From: Snodgrassella alvi
GTDB lineage: Bacteria > Pseudomonadota > Gammaproteobacteria > Burkholderiales > Neisseriaceae
DNA length: 64,000 bases
Direction of reading: 5' to 3'
NCBI RefSeq assembly: GCF_002777855.1
Contig: NZ_MEIK01000028.1
Location: 62,001 to 126,000, forward strand
This document shows, piece after piece, positions 1-6,759 of this stretch (positions are counted from its first letter, which is position 1; each line of letters opens with the position of its first letter). A program made the position numbers and the translations under genes. The notes under the pieces were generated by a model, which saw only the letters and a program-made list of their open reading frames with translations, ran no database searches and was not told where the DNA came from.

Positions 1-89
1 TAATCAACATCAAAGCCGGAGTCATACAGCATAAAAAACAACGCTAGTCCGACAATGCAGGCACATAGTATCCAGAAGCGACGGTTCAT
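1..89 (-). CDS. FecCD-type iron-siderophore ABC permease (N-terminal fragment, cut by window edge)
   Basis: Only the first 29 codons are in the window. The ATG (positions 87-89 on the complement) overlaps the stop codon of the upstream permease in an ATGA arrangement, so the two are translationally coupled. The visible peptide begins MNRRFWIL and runs into a hydrophobic segment ending near YDSGFD, as expected of the first membrane helix of the second permease in a two-permease siderophore importer. The rest of the importer (ATPase, binding protein, outer-membrane receptor) presumably lies to the left. The assignment rests on position, coupling and hydrophobicity. Confidence 0.7.
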   Translation of the reverse strand, partial: MNRRFWILCACIVGLALFFMLYDSGFDVD

Positions 90-1030
90 CAGCGTAACCC
101 CCGCAAAATCAGCAACAGAAACACAATGCCACCCACCGCTCCAGCTGTTAGCCCAATCGGTACTTCGAACGGATAAATCAGCAGACGGCCGCAGATATCA
201 CACAACAGCAGCAAGCAGGCACCACCAAGCGCCACCAGTGGCAGGGTTTTAACCAAATGTTCGCCATATTTCAGCGCTACCAAGTTTGGAATCACCAGCC
301 CAATAAATGGAATCGACCCCACCGTAATCACCGTGGCAGCCACCGTTATCGACACCAGCAGCAGCCCCAGCGCCACCGTGCGCCGGTAGCCCACACCCAG
401 ACTAGTGGCCATTTCCGCCCCCATGCCCACCACTGTAAACCGCTGAGCAAACACAAAGCTGAACACAAGCACCGGAATCAGCACATACAGCAGCTCATAA
501 TGCCCCTGTACCACACGGGCAAAATCACCCAGTAGCCAACCTTGCACATTTTGGAGAAGATTATATTTATAAGCATAGAATTCAGCTGCGGCACTGAGCA
601 CACAGCCATACATCAGCCCGATAACCGGAATCAGCACAACTTGTTGAAAACGGATTCTGGCAACAATCAAAATATAAATCGCACCGGCTACAAAGCAGAA
701 CAGCAGTGCAGTCAGCATTTTGCTGAACACACCGGCTGAAGGCAGCAGCACCAGCGATACCAGAATGCCCAGCTTAGCCGCATCCAGCCCGCCAGCTGTT
801 TCCGGCTCCACAAATTTATTGCGGACAATCTGTTGCAAAATCACCCCGCTAACAGACAGCCCCATACCCGTCAGAATAATGGCTATCAGGCGTGGCAAAC
901 GGCTAACGCGTAGCGTCAGCCAGTCACCCTCGGCACCGGCCAGTAAGCCCGACCATGACACCGGATCTGAGCCTACCAGCAAAGACACAATGCACAAACT
1001 GATAAACACAGCCGTCAGCGCCCGATACAT
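89..1030 (-). CDS. FecCD-family iron-siderophore ABC transporter permease
   Basis: Inner-membrane permease of a ferric-siderophore ABC importer. The 313-residue product is almost entirely hydrophobic, with about nine membrane segments. It carries the family's early region LRLPRLIAIILTGMGLSVSG-like (residues 43-62), where Arg and Pro precede a Gly-rich helix, and the late GSIPFIGLVIPNL region (about residue 238) that contacts the ATPase. Length fits the family (310-340). An AAGG stretch about 12 bases upstream supports the start. It lies leftward of a Fur-like site and opposite an NRPS gene, so the cargo is probably the siderophore made by the neighbouring enzymes. The substrate is inferred from context only. 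Confidence 0.85.
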   Translation of the reverse strand: MYRALTAVFISLCIVSLLVGSDPVSWSGLLAGAEGDWLTLRVSRLPRLIAIILTGMGLSVSGVILQQIVRNKFVEPETAGGLDAAKLGILVSLVLLPSAGVFSKMLTALLFCFVAGAIYILIVARIRFQQVVLIPVIGLMYGCVLSAAAEFYAYKYNLLQNVQGWLLGDFARVVQGHYELLYVLIPVLVFSFVFAQRFTVVGMGAEMATSLGVGYRRTVALGLLLVSITVAATVITVGSIPFIGLVIPNLVALKYGEHLVKTLPLVALGGACLLLLCDICGRLLIYPFEVPIGLTAGAVGGIVFLLLILRGLR

Positions 1031-1456: not shown

Positions 1457-3550
1457 ATGCTCGACACCCAAACAGCACCATCACCCGCAACCGAACATGA
1501 AGAATATATCTGGATGCAGCAATTGCAGGAACCGGAGCAGATAAAATATCAGCTCACAGCATGGCAGATGCATCCTGCTGCGGATACTGCCATCCTGCAA
1601 CAAAGCATTCAAAATCTGCTCAGCAACCATCCCGATTTAAATACCCGTTACGAATTCACCGATGATGGCGATTTATACAAATATCCAGACACAGACTGGA
1701 CAGCCTGCATACATCATGAGCAGACAGACTCAGACAGCGTTGCCGGCTTATTAACCACTCTGGCGCAGCTTCAATGGCAACCAGAAAGCATGCCACCATT
1801 TTTGGCCGATATCATCAGCACCAGCACCGGCGTTATACTAGCCTTTCGCCTTCATCCAGTACTCTCACAATCATTCACAACCGAAGAACTATGTGAAGAA
1901 ATAATGGCTGACTACACCAAGTTGAGTCATTCTACCCGCCCGCCCGAGCTGATTCCCATTAATCTAGACGGCCTCAACACCATGGCTCAGGCACACGCTA
2001 ACAGTGCCATTTCTGACCTTATTCTGACCGAGTTCAGAAACACACTGGCCGAGCCGGATATGTCAGCGGACGATGACTTCTTCGACTTTGGTGGCCATTC
2101 ACTGCTGGCTACCCGCGTCATTGGCAACCTACAAAACAACCACGGCGTCAAACTCACCTTCAACGACTTCTTCAAATCACCCACCGCCCGTGCACTGGCT
2201 ACCGTCGCGCGGCAAGAGCAGGCTCCAGCCAACACCACCGAAGCACAGCCGGATGAGCAGGCACCCCTAACACTGGCACAGGATTTTCTATGGCAGGCCT
2301 ATCGTGCTTTCAACTTTAGTCCCATATATAACTTACCCTTTGCTATAGAATTTCAGCAGCCAATCAATGAAGAAGCTTTGCATCAGGCTTTTCAGGACTT
2401 AATCATCCGCCACGTTGGTTTGCGTACACTATTTCGCAGTGATGGAAAGCAAACCATACAATACACCGTGCCCGTAGCCGAACTAAAGCAATACCACTGG
2501 TTCTGGCCAAGCAGCGACAGCACCGGCGCCACATTAGCCAGCGAAGCAGCCTACCAGTTTGATCTGACCCGCGAACTACCACTCAGAATCCGGTTATTAA
2601 AAGCCAAAAACGGCCACACCATTCTTTCCTTTCTCGTGCATCACATGGTCATCGACGAATGGTCTCTAAATACCATCATGACCGATTTAAACACCGCCTA
2701 CGCCGCACGCCTGCAAGGTAAAGCGCCTGAATGGCCAAATAGCGTACCGAGTATTCATGAATTTGCACGCCAGCAGCGTTTGCACGGCATCGACCCGCAA
2801 CACCTCGAATACTGGCGCAGCCGTCTGCAAGGAGCCGTTACCGGCCTGAACCTAAAAACAGCCGTACCCGCAACCAGCAACAGCGCCCCACAGGTAGAAT
2901 GGCTGCAACTCAGTTTCGACCACACCTTCCATCAACAAATTTCTGCCTTTGCCAGAGCCCACCACGCCTCAATTTTCAGTGTGTTTTACACCGCCATCGC
3001 CAGCGTGCTGCAAAAAGAGGGCGATTTACAAGAAATCGTTATCGGCACCTCCGCTTCCGGCCGTACCGACCCAAATTACTTTGACACCGTCGGCTACTTC
3101 ACCACCATGGTGGCTCACCGTATTCATTTTAGTCCGCAGCAGACATTCGATTCCCTGCTGGCTGCCACCAGCCAGCAAATCAACGAATCCATGGATTATG
3201 CCGATATCCCGATAAACTATATCCAGCAGGCCATCGGCATCCCCGATAATCAGGGATTAATGTTTGACGTATACATCCACATCCACTCCGGCAACGCCCT
3301 CAACGGTGAGCTCAACACCCCAAAGGGTACGGTTCCCTACCGGCAAATACTGCCCGAACGCAATGAATCCATGTTTGGCCTGCATTTCGAAATCATGGAA
3401 AACCTCATCAACAACCAGCCCAGCCTGAACATGATCATCACCTATCAGGCACACCGCTTCCCGAGCGCATTAATCCAACGCATTGCCGCTGAAATACAAC
3501 AGTTATTGCTGCAATTGGCTGCTCAGGCTGTCATCAAAGCTGGTCGCTAA
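1457..3550 (+). CDS. Siderophore NRPS: degenerate half condensation domain - carrier - condensation domain
   Basis: Non-ribosomal peptide synthetase subunit of 697 residues without an adenylation domain. Residues 15-165 resemble the N-terminal lobe of a condensation domain, but where the active-site HHxxxDG should lie there is HPVLSQS (133-139), so this half is probably inactive. Residues 180-250 form a peptidyl carrier domain with an intact attachment serine (FGGHSLLA, Ser215). Residues 270-690 are a complete condensation domain with HHMVIDEW (395-402), catalytic second His and Asp present, the usual Gly replaced by Glu. It must receive amino acid from an adenylation enzyme in trans; the obvious candidate is the convergent gene downstream. 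Product and substrates cannot be read from the sequence. Start supported by GAGAGG. Confidence 0.8.
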   Translation: MLDTQTAPSPATEHEEYIWMQQLQEPEQIKYQLTAWQMHPAADTAILQQSIQNLLSNHPDLNTRYEFTDDGDLYKYPDTDWTACIHHEQTDSDSVAGLLTTLAQLQWQPESMPPFLADIISTSTGVILAFRLHPVLSQSFTTEELCEEIMADYTKLSHSTRPPELIPINLDGLNTMAQAHANSAISDLILTEFRNTLAEPDMSADDDFFDFGGHSLLATRVIGNLQNNHGVKLTFNDFFKSPTARALATVARQEQAPANTTEAQPDEQAPLTLAQDFLWQAYRAFNFSPIYNLPFAIEFQQPINEEALHQAFQDLIIRHVGLRTLFRSDGKQTIQYTVPVAELKQYHWFWPSSDSTGATLASEAAYQFDLTRELPLRIRLLKAKNGHTILSFLVHHMVIDEWSLNTIMTDLNTAYAARLQGKAPEWPNSVPSIHEFARQQRLHGIDPQHLEYWRSRLQGAVTGLNLKTAVPATSNSAPQVEWLQLSFDHTFHQQISAFARAHHASIFSVFYTAIASVLQKEGDLQEIVIGTSASGRTDPNYFDTVGYFTTMVAHRIHFSPQQTFDSLLAATSQQINESMDYADIPINYIQQAIGIPDNQGLMFDVYIHIHSGNALNGELNTPKGTVPYRQILPERNESMFGLHFEIMENLINNQPSLNMIITYQAHRFPSALIQRIAAEIQQLLLQLAAQAVIKAGR

Positions 3551-3567
3551 ACCAAAGTCCCAAAAAC

Positions 3568-3602
3568 AATAAAGTGCTTAAATCTACTTTAAGCACTTTA
3601 TT
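3568..3602. terminator. Bidirectional intrinsic terminator between convergent NRPS genes
   Basis: A perfect 15-base-pair stem (AATAAAGTGCTTAAA and its complement) closes a five-base TCTAC loop. A-rich sequence lies on the left and T-rich on the right, so it can end transcripts from both sides. Confidence 0.85.
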
Positions 3603-3619
3603 GATATTATTTTCTAACA

Positions 3620-5491
3620 CTAATGCCGCATCTTCTGCTGCACCTGTCGCACCACATCCTGTATCGTCTTACAACGCAGCAGCAACGGCGCCTCAAGCTT
3701 AATATCAAACCGCTCTTTAATCCGGCCAGCCACCTGCACCAATTGTTTCAGTCGCATGCCCATCGCTAGAATCTCAGTGTGTCCAGTGATATTTTCGGTA
3801 CTGGCAGCCGATTGCGAGTGGAAGTCGCGGAAAATCGCCACAATATCCGCAGCCAGAGTCTGCTCCTGCACTGAAGTGGTCTCAGCCTGCGGTGCAGACG
3901 GATACAACTGTTCCTGTGCCATTTGCTGAACCAGCTTGCGGTCAATTTTCACATTGCGTGTTAGCGGAATTTCTTCAACCGCTAGCCAGCGTGTCGGAAT
4001 ATGCGATTTAGGCAGGCTCAACAGCAGACGTTCTTTCAACGCCAAAATATCCATATCCTCCATCCCCGCCGGCAGCTTATACACGGCCACCAGCTCCTGC
4101 ATCGCTGTTACCGGATGCGTACAGCCCACCACCACACTATCGGCTAGGCCGCCGGATTTAGCCAGCACCGCTTCCACCTCCGCCGCCGAAATCCGTACCC
4201 CCTTAATCTTCAAATATCCTTGTGTACGCCCCGCAAAAATAATATTGCCATCCTCACGGACATAGCCCAGATCACTCATACGTAATGCAATTTTTCCGCC
4301 TGCGCAGTCCAGCGGCACAAAATCATTGGTCAGCATCTGCCCATTAAGCAGATAACCATTGGATAGATTCACACCTGACATATACATTTGCCCCACCTCA
4401 CCAAGCGCACACGGCTGCAATGCTTCGTCCAGAATATAGTAGTGGTTGTGTGGCAAAGCCTGACCATAAGGAATCACATCCACATCTTGTGCTGTTATTT
4501 CATGCCATATACTCCAGATAGTGGTTTCCGTCGGCCCCCCCAGCGAAAACAGACGAGCCTGTGGTAGTTGCTGGCGTAAATACTCAATCAGAGCAGGCTT
4601 AATATAATCACCTCCCTGTGCCACCAGCCGCAACGATTGTAATTGCTCCGGCCGCGCCACACTGCACAGCATATCCACAATTGCCGGTACACTCACCCAC
4701 ACTGTAATCTTGTGTTCGGCCACCAGCTCAGCCCATGCACACGCATCCTTCACTTGCATTATCGTCGGTACTACCAGCGTTGCTCCCTGAGCCATCGCCG
4801 CAAACACATCGAATACCGACATATCATGATGAAATGGCGTTACCGCCATCAACACATCTTCCTGCCGCACTTGCCACCTGTCGATTGTGTGTTCGAGCAC
4901 ATTCGCCGTAGCCTGATTATTCAGAACCACACATTTCGGCACCCCCGTACTGCCGGAAGTATACAAATAATAAGCCGCACTTCTGTCCAGCCGGTAGCGG
5001 CATTCCGGCACCGGCATTAACGGAGCTGCCGGTAGCTCATCCAGCACAATACATTGCCGACCAGCAATATGCGCTTGTGCAATCACAACATCAACCTCAC
5101 TATTGTCGAGCAAATACATACGCCGTGCCGGTGGTGCGTCCATATCCACCGGTAACCAAATAATGCCCAGCAGGGCGCATGCCACCACCGCATACACATG
5201 CTCCGCGCTTTTAGGCAGACACACCGCCACCACCGCGCCAGCTTGTAAATCTTTTTGTTGCAATACCTGCATGAACCTGGCCACCTGTTCACCCATCTGT
5301 GGATAACTAATGGCCTGACCAGCATAAAAGAGTGCCGTTTTATCCACCACACCCGCAAACAAATTACGCCGGATACGGTCTAAAAAATCAAATACCTGCT
5401 TCCCTGTACCCTTTGTATGCAATCCGTCCGGTACATAGTCATCTGATGCAGAAGGGTAGGGTTGCTGTAGCGCGGCTTGGTCAGATTGCAT
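3620..5491 (-). CDS. NRPS adenylation-domain protein with serine-less carrier-like tail
   Basis: Activates an amino or aryl acid as the AMP ester for siderophore assembly. Numbering from the start chosen here (GGGAG about nine bases upstream; an in-frame ATG at 5572 gives 27 more residues), the adenylation motifs are clear: LYTSGSTGVPK (176-186), GGPTE (318-322), GRTQGYLKIKG (421-431) and the final lysine in NVKIDRK (Lys515). The GGPTETTIWSIW stretch resembles adenylation domains of cyclising siderophore synthetases of the HMWP2/PchE type, but I do not assign a substrate. The last 80 residues look like a carrier domain, but the attachment serine position reads AMGMRLKQL with Arg580, so it cannot be phosphopantetheinylated. 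Loading would then go to the carrier of the convergent protein. Confidence 0.85.
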   Translation of the reverse strand: MQSDQAALQQPYPSASDDYVPDGLHTKGTGKQVFDFLDRIRRNLFAGVVDKTALFYAGQAISYPQMGEQVARFMQVLQQKDLQAGAVVAVCLPKSAEHVYAVVACALLGIIWLPVDMDAPPARRMYLLDNSEVDVVIAQAHIAGRQCIVLDELPAAPLMPVPECRYRLDRSAAYYLYTSGSTGVPKCVVLNNQATANVLEHTIDRWQVRQEDVLMAVTPFHHDMSVFDVFAAMAQGATLVVPTIMQVKDACAWAELVAEHKITVWVSVPAIVDMLCSVARPEQLQSLRLVAQGGDYIKPALIEYLRQQLPQARLFSLGGPTETTIWSIWHEITAQDVDVIPYGQALPHNHYYILDEALQPCALGEVGQMYMSGVNLSNGYLLNGQMLTNDFVPLDCAGGKIALRMSDLGYVREDGNIIFAGRTQGYLKIKGVRISAAEVEAVLAKSGGLADSVVVGCTHPVTAMQELVAVYKLPAGMEDMDILALKERLLLSLPKSHIPTRWLAVEEIPLTRNVKIDRKLVQQMAQEQLYPSAPQAETTSVQEQTLAADIVAIFRDFHSQSAASTENITGHTEILAMGMRLKQLVQVAGRIKERFDIKLEAPLLLRCKTIQDVVRQVQQKMRH

Positions 5492-5601: not shown

Positions 5602-5620
5602 GATAATAATAATTATTTTC
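5602..5620. promoter_or_regulatory. Fur box upstream of adenylation gene
   Basis: GATAATAATAATTATTTTC matches 16 of 19 positions of the Fur consensus GATAATGATAATCATTATC. It lies about 110 bases upstream of the adenylation gene and is the best Fur site in the window, marking that gene as iron-repressed. Confidence 0.8.
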
Positions 5621-5868: not shown

Positions 5869-6300
5869 ATGGACAAAATAGCAATCACTTTCACTCTGCC
5901 AACCTCAGCTACACCAGAAAAAATCTGGCCTTACTACACTGAAATCTCATTAAGACAGCAGTGGGAAACCGATCTAGAAGAATTTCGCCTTACAGGCGAG
6001 CTGAAAACCGGCGTACAGGGCATGTTTAAAATTCAGCATATGCCCGCAATGTCTGTAACACTTTCAAAAGTCATAACCAATCAGGAATTTACTGAAGAAT
6101 TTAATATGCCCGATATCGGCTTATTATATTTTTCCCATCAGATAGTGCAGCTATCAAAAGACCAATATGCCTTAAAAGCTGAAATTGCACTCATTCCTGA
6201 TGAAAAACTTGATAATGCCGCAACGCGTGATTTTCTAAAACAAATCTCTGATGATATTATGGACAAAGCATACGCATTGAAACATCTCGTCGAGAACTAA
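5869..6300 (+). CDS. SRPBCC-family (START-like) protein
   Basis: A 143-residue protein that opens with the pattern of SRPBCC proteins: an aliphatic beta strand, then SATPEKIWPYYTEI (residues 13-26), followed by WETDLEEFRL and a Gly-rich turn. The fold forms a deep hydrophobic ligand pocket and is used by polyketide cyclases, lipid-transfer proteins and stress proteins. No catalytic residue identifies a reaction. AAAGGGA precedes the start. The stop is three bases before a marR gene, so the pair is one operon, and the SRPBCC protein may bind or modify the compound sensed by the regulator. Ligand unknown. Confidence 0.75.
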   Translation: MDKIAITFTLPTSATPEKIWPYYTEISLRQQWETDLEEFRLTGELKTGVQGMFKIQHMPAMSVTLSKVITNQEFTEEFNMPDIGLLYFSHQIVQLSKDQYALKAEIALIPDEKLDNAATRDFLKQISDDIMDKAYALKHLVEN

Positions 6301-6303
6301 GAA

Positions 6304-6759
6304 ATGAGTCAGGACAATAAATTTCATACACAATTTACCAAAGATAGCGATTCAATTGGTTTTGTTTTCATGAAAACTTATTCGTCCTGGCACAACCAAA
6401 TAAAAAATTGTCTCAAACAGCAGCACATCACCCATCCCCAGTTTATCGTACTAGCCACACTTGCCTATTTGTCACAATATGAGCAAGAAATCACACAAGT
6501 CTTACTCGCCGATAAAACCAATATCGACGTCATGACCATCTCACAGATACTGGAAAATCTAGAAAAAAAGGGTCATATCATCCGCAGCGTTTCCAGCAGA
6601 GACAGTCGCGCCAAATCCATTACCCTCACACCAGCCGGCTTCGACAAAGCCAATCAAACCGTGCCTTTAGTCGAGCACATAGACCAGCAGTTTTTCGCGG
6701 CATTAGGGGAAAATAAAAACCGCTTCCATCAGATGCTCTTAGCCCTGTTGAAAGTTTAA
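6304..6759 (+). CDS. MarR-family transcriptional regulator
   Basis: A 151-residue winged-helix repressor. The core is typical: THPQFIVLATLAY (helix before the HTH), the recognition region TNIDVMTISQILENLEKKG (about 76-94), and the wing RSVSSRDSRAKSITLTPAG, containing the DxRxK pattern conserved in the family. It probably controls its own operon through the palindrome at 5840-5853. The inducer is unknown. Nothing links it by sequence to the siderophore genes, although they are adjacent. Confidence 0.88.
   Translation: MSQDNKFHTQFTKDSDSIGFVFMKTYSSWHNQIKNCLKQQHITHPQFIVLATLAYLSQYEQEITQVLLADKTNIDVMTISQILENLEKKGHIIRSVSSRDSRAKSITLTPAGFDKANQTVPLVEHIDQQFFAALGENKNRFHQMLLALLKV

Follow-up and report, generated by a model that had tools for sequence, protein, structure and literature searches.

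A probable BasA/BasB pair of an acinetobactin-type siderophore assembly line in Snodgrassella alvi, with serine-less carrier tails shared among relatives

Two convergent nonribosomal peptide synthetase (NRPS) genes occupy positions 1457-5491 of a 64,000-nucleotide stretch of the Snodgrassella alvi contig NZ_MEIK01000028.1 (hereafter the window), and we consider it very probable that they are orthologues of basA and basB, encoding the threonine-type loader and the carrier/release enzyme of an acinetobactin-type siderophore assembly line that would follow the route proposed below. This assignment draws on observed domain anatomy, synteny, a carrier count, and a family-wide loss of the carrier serine. 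The arrangement, first noticed in a sequence-only reading of the window, is not peculiar to the locus; it is family-wide and published, and trans loading by BasA and AngR, the non-functional peptidyl carrier protein (PCP) domain of AngR, and the dead C1 domain of VibF have all been described before. What look new are a pseudo-carrier shared by BasA and BasD and the lack of a histidine decarboxylase despite an intact monooxygenase. The two genes and their parts are as follows.

1457-3550, plus strand: basB/angM-like gene, 697 amino acids (aa), degenerate condensation (C) domain C1, PCP, and C2, from Pfam and alignment; 53.5% identity to Acinetobacter baumannii BasB.
BasB residues ~1-175: degenerate C1, condensation N-lobe only, with HPVLSQS at residues 133-139.
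BasB residues ~183-252: active PCP with intact GGHS215.
BasB residues ~268-690: C2 condensation domain with HHMVIDEW.
3620-5491, minus strand: basA-like gene, adenylation (A) domain and serine-less tail carrier (residues ~545-622, GMRL581); 55.8% identity to A. baumannii BasA.
3749-3751, minus strand: CTG codon of Leu581, at the phosphopantetheine-serine position by alignment.

Pfam matches in BasB cover residues 196-249 (PP-binding) and 268-690 (Condensation), and the N-terminus gave another, weak Condensation match; the previously read order of a half-condensation domain with HPVLSQS, a Ser215 carrier, and a condensation domain was thus recovered by Pfam and sequence together. C2 retains HHxxxD in the alignment, and the protein, which is 41% identical to AngM, combines the degenerate N-terminal C region, PCP serine, and HHxxxD C domain of BasB and AngM. 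The basA gene starts at the ATG at 5491, in a frame that is open to 5572, and its product contains an AMP-binding match of 243 bits and a C-terminal PP-binding match of 21.0 bits (Pfam cut-off 20.8); like BasA, it has a stand-alone A domain and no functional carrier. The genes converge, as had been read, with 69 bp between them. Whole-model fold matches of BasB were condensation domains, with root-mean-square deviations of ~18-28 A that are informative for the condensation fold only, and the BasA model was poor (mean predicted local distance difference test score, pLDDT, 53.9), the helical tail being its sole use.

BasA residues G578-M579-R580-L581 align with the GGHS of active carriers, such that leucine holds the serine position and arginine the preceding His/Asp position. 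The earlier claim of arginine for serine in this tail was therefore right about the loss of serine and one residue off about its replacement. A sequencing error at this codon, which would have undone that claim, is ruled out, since serine is likewise missing there from a second, independent genome of the species and from every relative.

In the genome assembly (estimated 100% complete, 42 contigs), there are five PP-binding matches, namely AcpP (inferred from its size and score to be the fatty-acid-synthesis acyl carrier), the BasB PCP, the BasF aryl carrier protein (ArCP) domain, and two serine-less tails, together with three AMP-binding proteins. The BasB PCP is the sole serine-bearing peptidyl carrier among these matches, and on these counts it is the only one open to the amino acid of BasA. 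Trans loading of the BasB PCP by BasA, proposed from the sequence and now backed by the genome-wide count and homologue models, is accordingly well supported as a prediction. Published accounts give the same picture: BasA loads the BasB PCP in the accepted acinetobactin model (PMC12005286), AngR loads AngM in anguibactin synthesis (PMC6836290), and the PCP of AngR itself is non-functional through a Ser to Ala change (PMC6836290; PMC5577590). That a usable, complete carrier module elsewhere pairs with BasA is hardly credible, given the five matches; a carrier and condensation module just left of the window had been named as the finding that would overturn trans loading, and the left neighbour is instead a Cy-Cy (tandem cyclisation domain) protein that likewise lacks the serine in its tail carrier.

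The contig from which the window is taken is 145.7 kb long, and most of the siderophore cluster lies to the left of the window. That part comprises entA, entC, a phosphopantetheinyl transferase gene, two ABC exporter genes, and genes for an isochorismatase-ArCP (BasF), a 2,3-dihydroxybenzoate (DHB)-AMP ligase (BasE), a 948-aa Cy-Cy-carrier protein (BasD), a histamine N-monooxygenase (BasC), a TonB receptor, a binding protein, an ATPase, and a permease. Gene order and orientation are those of the A. baumannii acinetobactin cluster, to which BasD and BasC are 48.8% and 67.6% identical, and the two systems also share their domain set, serine-less BasA and BasD tails, degenerate BasB half-domain, and trans adenylation (PMC12005286). 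The set for DHB synthesis and activation is present (EntA, EntC, isochorismatase-ArCP, and DHB-AMP ligase), with EntA and EntC assigned by similarity to Vibrio genes only and the ligase passing its NCBIfam equivalog cut-off (836 vs 724 bits). The monooxygenase is intact, scores 755.5 bits against TIGR04439 (cut-off 700), and is 88-89% identical to its nearest named relatives, from S. gandavensis and S. alvi. The best matches of BasD are solved Cy domains, and DxxxxD is kept in both of its tandem Cy domains. Beside the cluster, left of the window (L009:889-9072), is the gene for a 2,727-aa protein that contains many near-identical repeats and whose C-terminus resembles, by eye, that of a trimeric autotransporter adhesin.

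With substrates, step order, and product taken from homologues, BasE would load DHB onto the BasF ArCP, and BasA would adenylate its amino acid and, without a usable carrier of its own, load it in trans onto the phosphopantetheine of BasB Ser215. The tandem Cy domains of BasD would then join and cyclise both units on BasB, and BasB C2 would release the product onto a free N-hydroxylated amine supplied by the BasC-like monooxygenase. These roles are the ones given to the proteins in published schemes for acinetobactin (PMC12005286), anguibactin (PMC6836290), and vibriobactin (PMC5577590).

Two sets of observations weigh against this assignment. The motif-anchored BasA pocket reads DMFVVQLIWK, whereas that of A. 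baumannii reads DMFSIQLIWK; two positions differ, and threonine is not certain. The other set concerns the amine. A. baumannii has the histidine decarboxylase gene basG between the exporter gene and basF (L091:3116-4267), whereas the exporter-basF gap in the Snodgrassella genome is 53 bp (L005:3955-4007). An AngH query matched none of 14 Snodgrassella genomes, two of them single-contig, while a histidine decarboxylase gene was found in A. baumannii, five Chromobacterium/Xenophilus, and two Vibrio loci (one tblastn). Nothing in the S. alvi genome exceeded the PF00282 cut-off, the one weak match being IscS, and eight control genomes matched; the genome likewise has no PF01276 decarboxylase, and its sole PF02784 protein is LysA. 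A search for the pyruvoyl-type enzyme gave no signal even in controls and is uninformative. Since no histidine decarboxylase was found in the genome or among the 14 genomes of the genus, the amine partner is uncertain, which leaves an external supply of histamine, the use of a different amine, or an unrecognised enzyme. Judged by the decarboxylase feature, the locus may be called an acinetobactin-type assembly line, and a complete acinetobactin pathway is not established.

VibF has the domain order Cy-Cy-A-C1-PCP-C2, and because a cut after A leaves exactly C1-PCP-C2, that remainder would correspond to BasB. PMC5577590 gives VibF a pair each of Cy and C domains with a single A and a single PCP domain and, citing Hillson 2004, describes C1 as non-catalytic and as an aid to dimerisation. 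By analogy, the N-terminal half-domain of BasB is probably a catalytically dead remnant of VibF C1. Compared with that published description, the Snodgrassella set corresponds to the single chain cut apart, but it is split into three chains and its C1 is reduced to the N-lobe. As regards dimerisation, this N-lobe is the only part of C1 present, and it is the part modelled confidently (pLDDT ~85 for residues 1-173, in a BasB model of 59.5 overall). Relatives differ in how much sequence precedes the PCP, counted from the open frame: Roseibium and Rhodovulum have ~485-517 aa there, a protein encoded on an E. coli plasmid has ~364 aa, and in Chromobacterium, Acinetobacter, and Vibrio the figure falls to ~186-209 aa. 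HHxxxDG is not recognisable before the PCP in any of them, and the length series may reflect progressive erosion of the domain.

The tail of BasD is serine-less as well (GLRP), and alignment shows the same for A. baumannii BasA (GIRP) and BasD and for AngN. Fused Cy-Cy-A proteins of Chromobacterium, Rhodovulum, and the E. coli plasmid have the same serine-less end, and Cy-A proteins of Agrobacterium and Roseibium carry the tails GLLP and GLKL; these fused relatives share with Snodgrassella a separate degenerate C1-PCP-C protein where seen, but their A domain is still joined to Cy and their pre-PCP region varies in length, with ~500 aa in Rhodovulum and Roseibium at one end and ~200 aa in Chromobacterium at the other. 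The E. coli plasmid, pWP4-S18-ESBL-07_1, is conjugative and carries the whole VibF-like set (Cy-Cy-A with pseudo-carrier, and C1-PCP-C with degenerate C1) with a TonB receptor and transport genes (L094:4094-18122). The motif L-x-x-C-[KR]-[NT] is common to the tails except that of Rhodovulum, and active carriers lack it. Among 13,045 open reading frames, a BasD-tail profile matched the fused tails at 44-61 bits (Rhodovulum 18) and BasA tails at 18-22 bits, and it matched no active carrier; searches with BasA tails matched the other tails weakly, at 10-24 bits, and an ordinary carrier ranked among them. The kinship of the BasA and BasD tails thus looks real but distant. This comparison is based on plasmid records and siderophore loci of relatives; a tandem-Cy search of 398 genomes of the phylum and 369 of the class (E <= 1e-100) returned almost nothing beyond the S. 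alvi genome itself. Tails in other genera score 13.6-18.3 bits or give no match (Pfam cut-off 20.8), which would explain their omission from annotations. The portions covered of published acinetobactin-type descriptions do not mention the carrier-like tails of BasA and BasD, and an open-access literature search turned up no paper about docking by serine-less carriers and none about acinetobactin in Snodgrassella.

Anguibactin (Vibrio anguillarum pJM1) resembles this system, with AngM as degenerate C1-PCP-C, AngN as Cy-Cy with a serine-less PCP, and a serine-less carrier on its A protein, hence trans loading (PMC6836290). AngR differs in being only 27% identical to BasA and in having an extra dead Cy domain and a GGDAYN carrier (Ser to Ala). 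This identity and the different carrier lineage rule out AngR as a direct orthologue of the BasA-like protein; because its carrier resembles a separate lineage, serine was probably lost at least twice.

The pseudo-carrier is present in nearly all examined relatives in which the real carrier sits on another chain. Paracoccus denitrificans has Cy-Cy-A-PCP-C in a single 1,917-aa chain that lacks the pseudo-carrier; its active carrier immediately follows A. The layout recurs in Paracoccus sp. MA (L102:7358-13111), spread over two frames: the synthetase is there split in frame within Cy2 into two genes. Because the tail is absent in Paracoccus, where the carrier is in cis, its presence goes with a carrier on another chain, a contrast that comes from this one lineage. 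In our reading, BasA and BasD end in members of one pseudo-carrier family, most likely kept as docking or structural parts, and docking is the likeliest hypothesis for their use. A fuller scenario, which we put forward tentatively and at somewhat less than an even chance, is that a dedicated pseudo-carrier family was retained on both products after an ancestral chain of Cy-Cy-A and pseudo-carrier split, the tails now bringing loader and cyclase to BasB, perhaps to its dead C1 half-domain. The suggestion of the sequence-only reading that the dead carrier is a docking domain is therefore plausible, with comparative support from the shared tail family and its absence in cis, and docking itself stays hypothetical.

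It is also possible, though less likely than not, that the tails are inert relics, tolerated since trans loading made them unnecessary. Between Snodgrassella genomes, tail dN/dS (the ratio of nonsynonymous to synonymous substitution rates) is 0.16-0.46, a constraint weaker than that on catalytic domains (BasA tail 0.23-0.46 vs A domain 0.12-0.17), and most tails lie at or under the Pfam cut-off, as relics might. However, these ratios are well below 1, and both BasA and BasD have retained the tail, which occurs with its shared motif (Rhodovulum apart) in alpha-, beta-, and gammaproteobacteria and is missing where the real carrier is in cis. Alternatively, the whole locus might be a decaying, non-functional pathway, with the dead carrier, half C domain, and missing decarboxylase as steps of erosion. 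The decarboxylase result favours this, as do the presence of basB in only 6 of the 14 Snodgrassella genomes and a deletion running from basE into entC in one strain. Yet the three NRPS frames are open in all five genomes compared, with dN/dS of 0.05-0.46 indicating purifying selection, A. baumannii and Vibrio produce their siderophores with the same domains just as dead, and regulatory footprints are conserved; we regard decay as improbable. A pan-genome antiSMASH survey that covered 88 strains of Snodgrassella has no NRPS cluster in its list (PMC9598484).

In the strain with the deletion, S. alvi Nev4-2 (L013:4555-6920), basE stops at ~390 residues, and behind it stand the final ~95 residues of entC and the entA gene, in that order. 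This locus is without basF, both exporter genes, and the phosphopantetheinyl transferase gene, while receptor and uptake genes remain, and it looks like either a strain-level deletion leaving the receiver only or an assembly join.

The regulatory and neighbouring features of the window are these.

89-1030, minus strand: FecCD siderophore permease gene (BauC/D-like), by Pfam and synteny; start of an uptake operon continuing left.
1238-1268 (approximate limits), no strand assigned: footprint upstream of basB, TTGATGGAAATGAGAATCAATTGTATTATAT; its conservation reaches A. baumannii, and its consensus match is weak.
5602-5620, no strand assigned: Fur-box-like palindrome upstream of basA, GATAATAATAATTATTTTC; 16/19 to consensus, identical in two other Snodgrassella genomes.

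Both genes had been read as Fur-controlled, and for basA this agrees with a box expected 0.03 times in the window and equalled in none of 300 shuffles. The basB site matches the Fur consensus at 12/19, which 208 of 300 shuffles equalled and which is no better than chance; the consensus match was dropped and the site kept as a footprint. The block TTGATGNAAATGANAATCAATTNTA upstream of basB is conserved from Snodgrassella to A. baumannii in an otherwise diverged intergenic region, and the footprint is probably a Fur site shared with the divergent permease gene. A further 15/19 Fur box lies between basE and basD. Divergent from basA and sharing its Fur-box intergenic region are genes for a small SRPBCC-like protein (below the Pfam cut-off) and a MarR regulator (window 5869-6759).

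Most of the oddities first read from this locus are known acinetobactin and anguibactin logic, now in a genus of bee-gut symbionts. A histamine-type pathway without the histamine-making gene suggests that the amine may be taken from the host, its diet, or neighbouring microbes. If the tails do act in docking, carrier folds would have found a second, non-catalytic use in docking across vibriobactin-like siderophore synthetases, and the shared tail offers a testable rule for how split siderophore synthetases find their partners.

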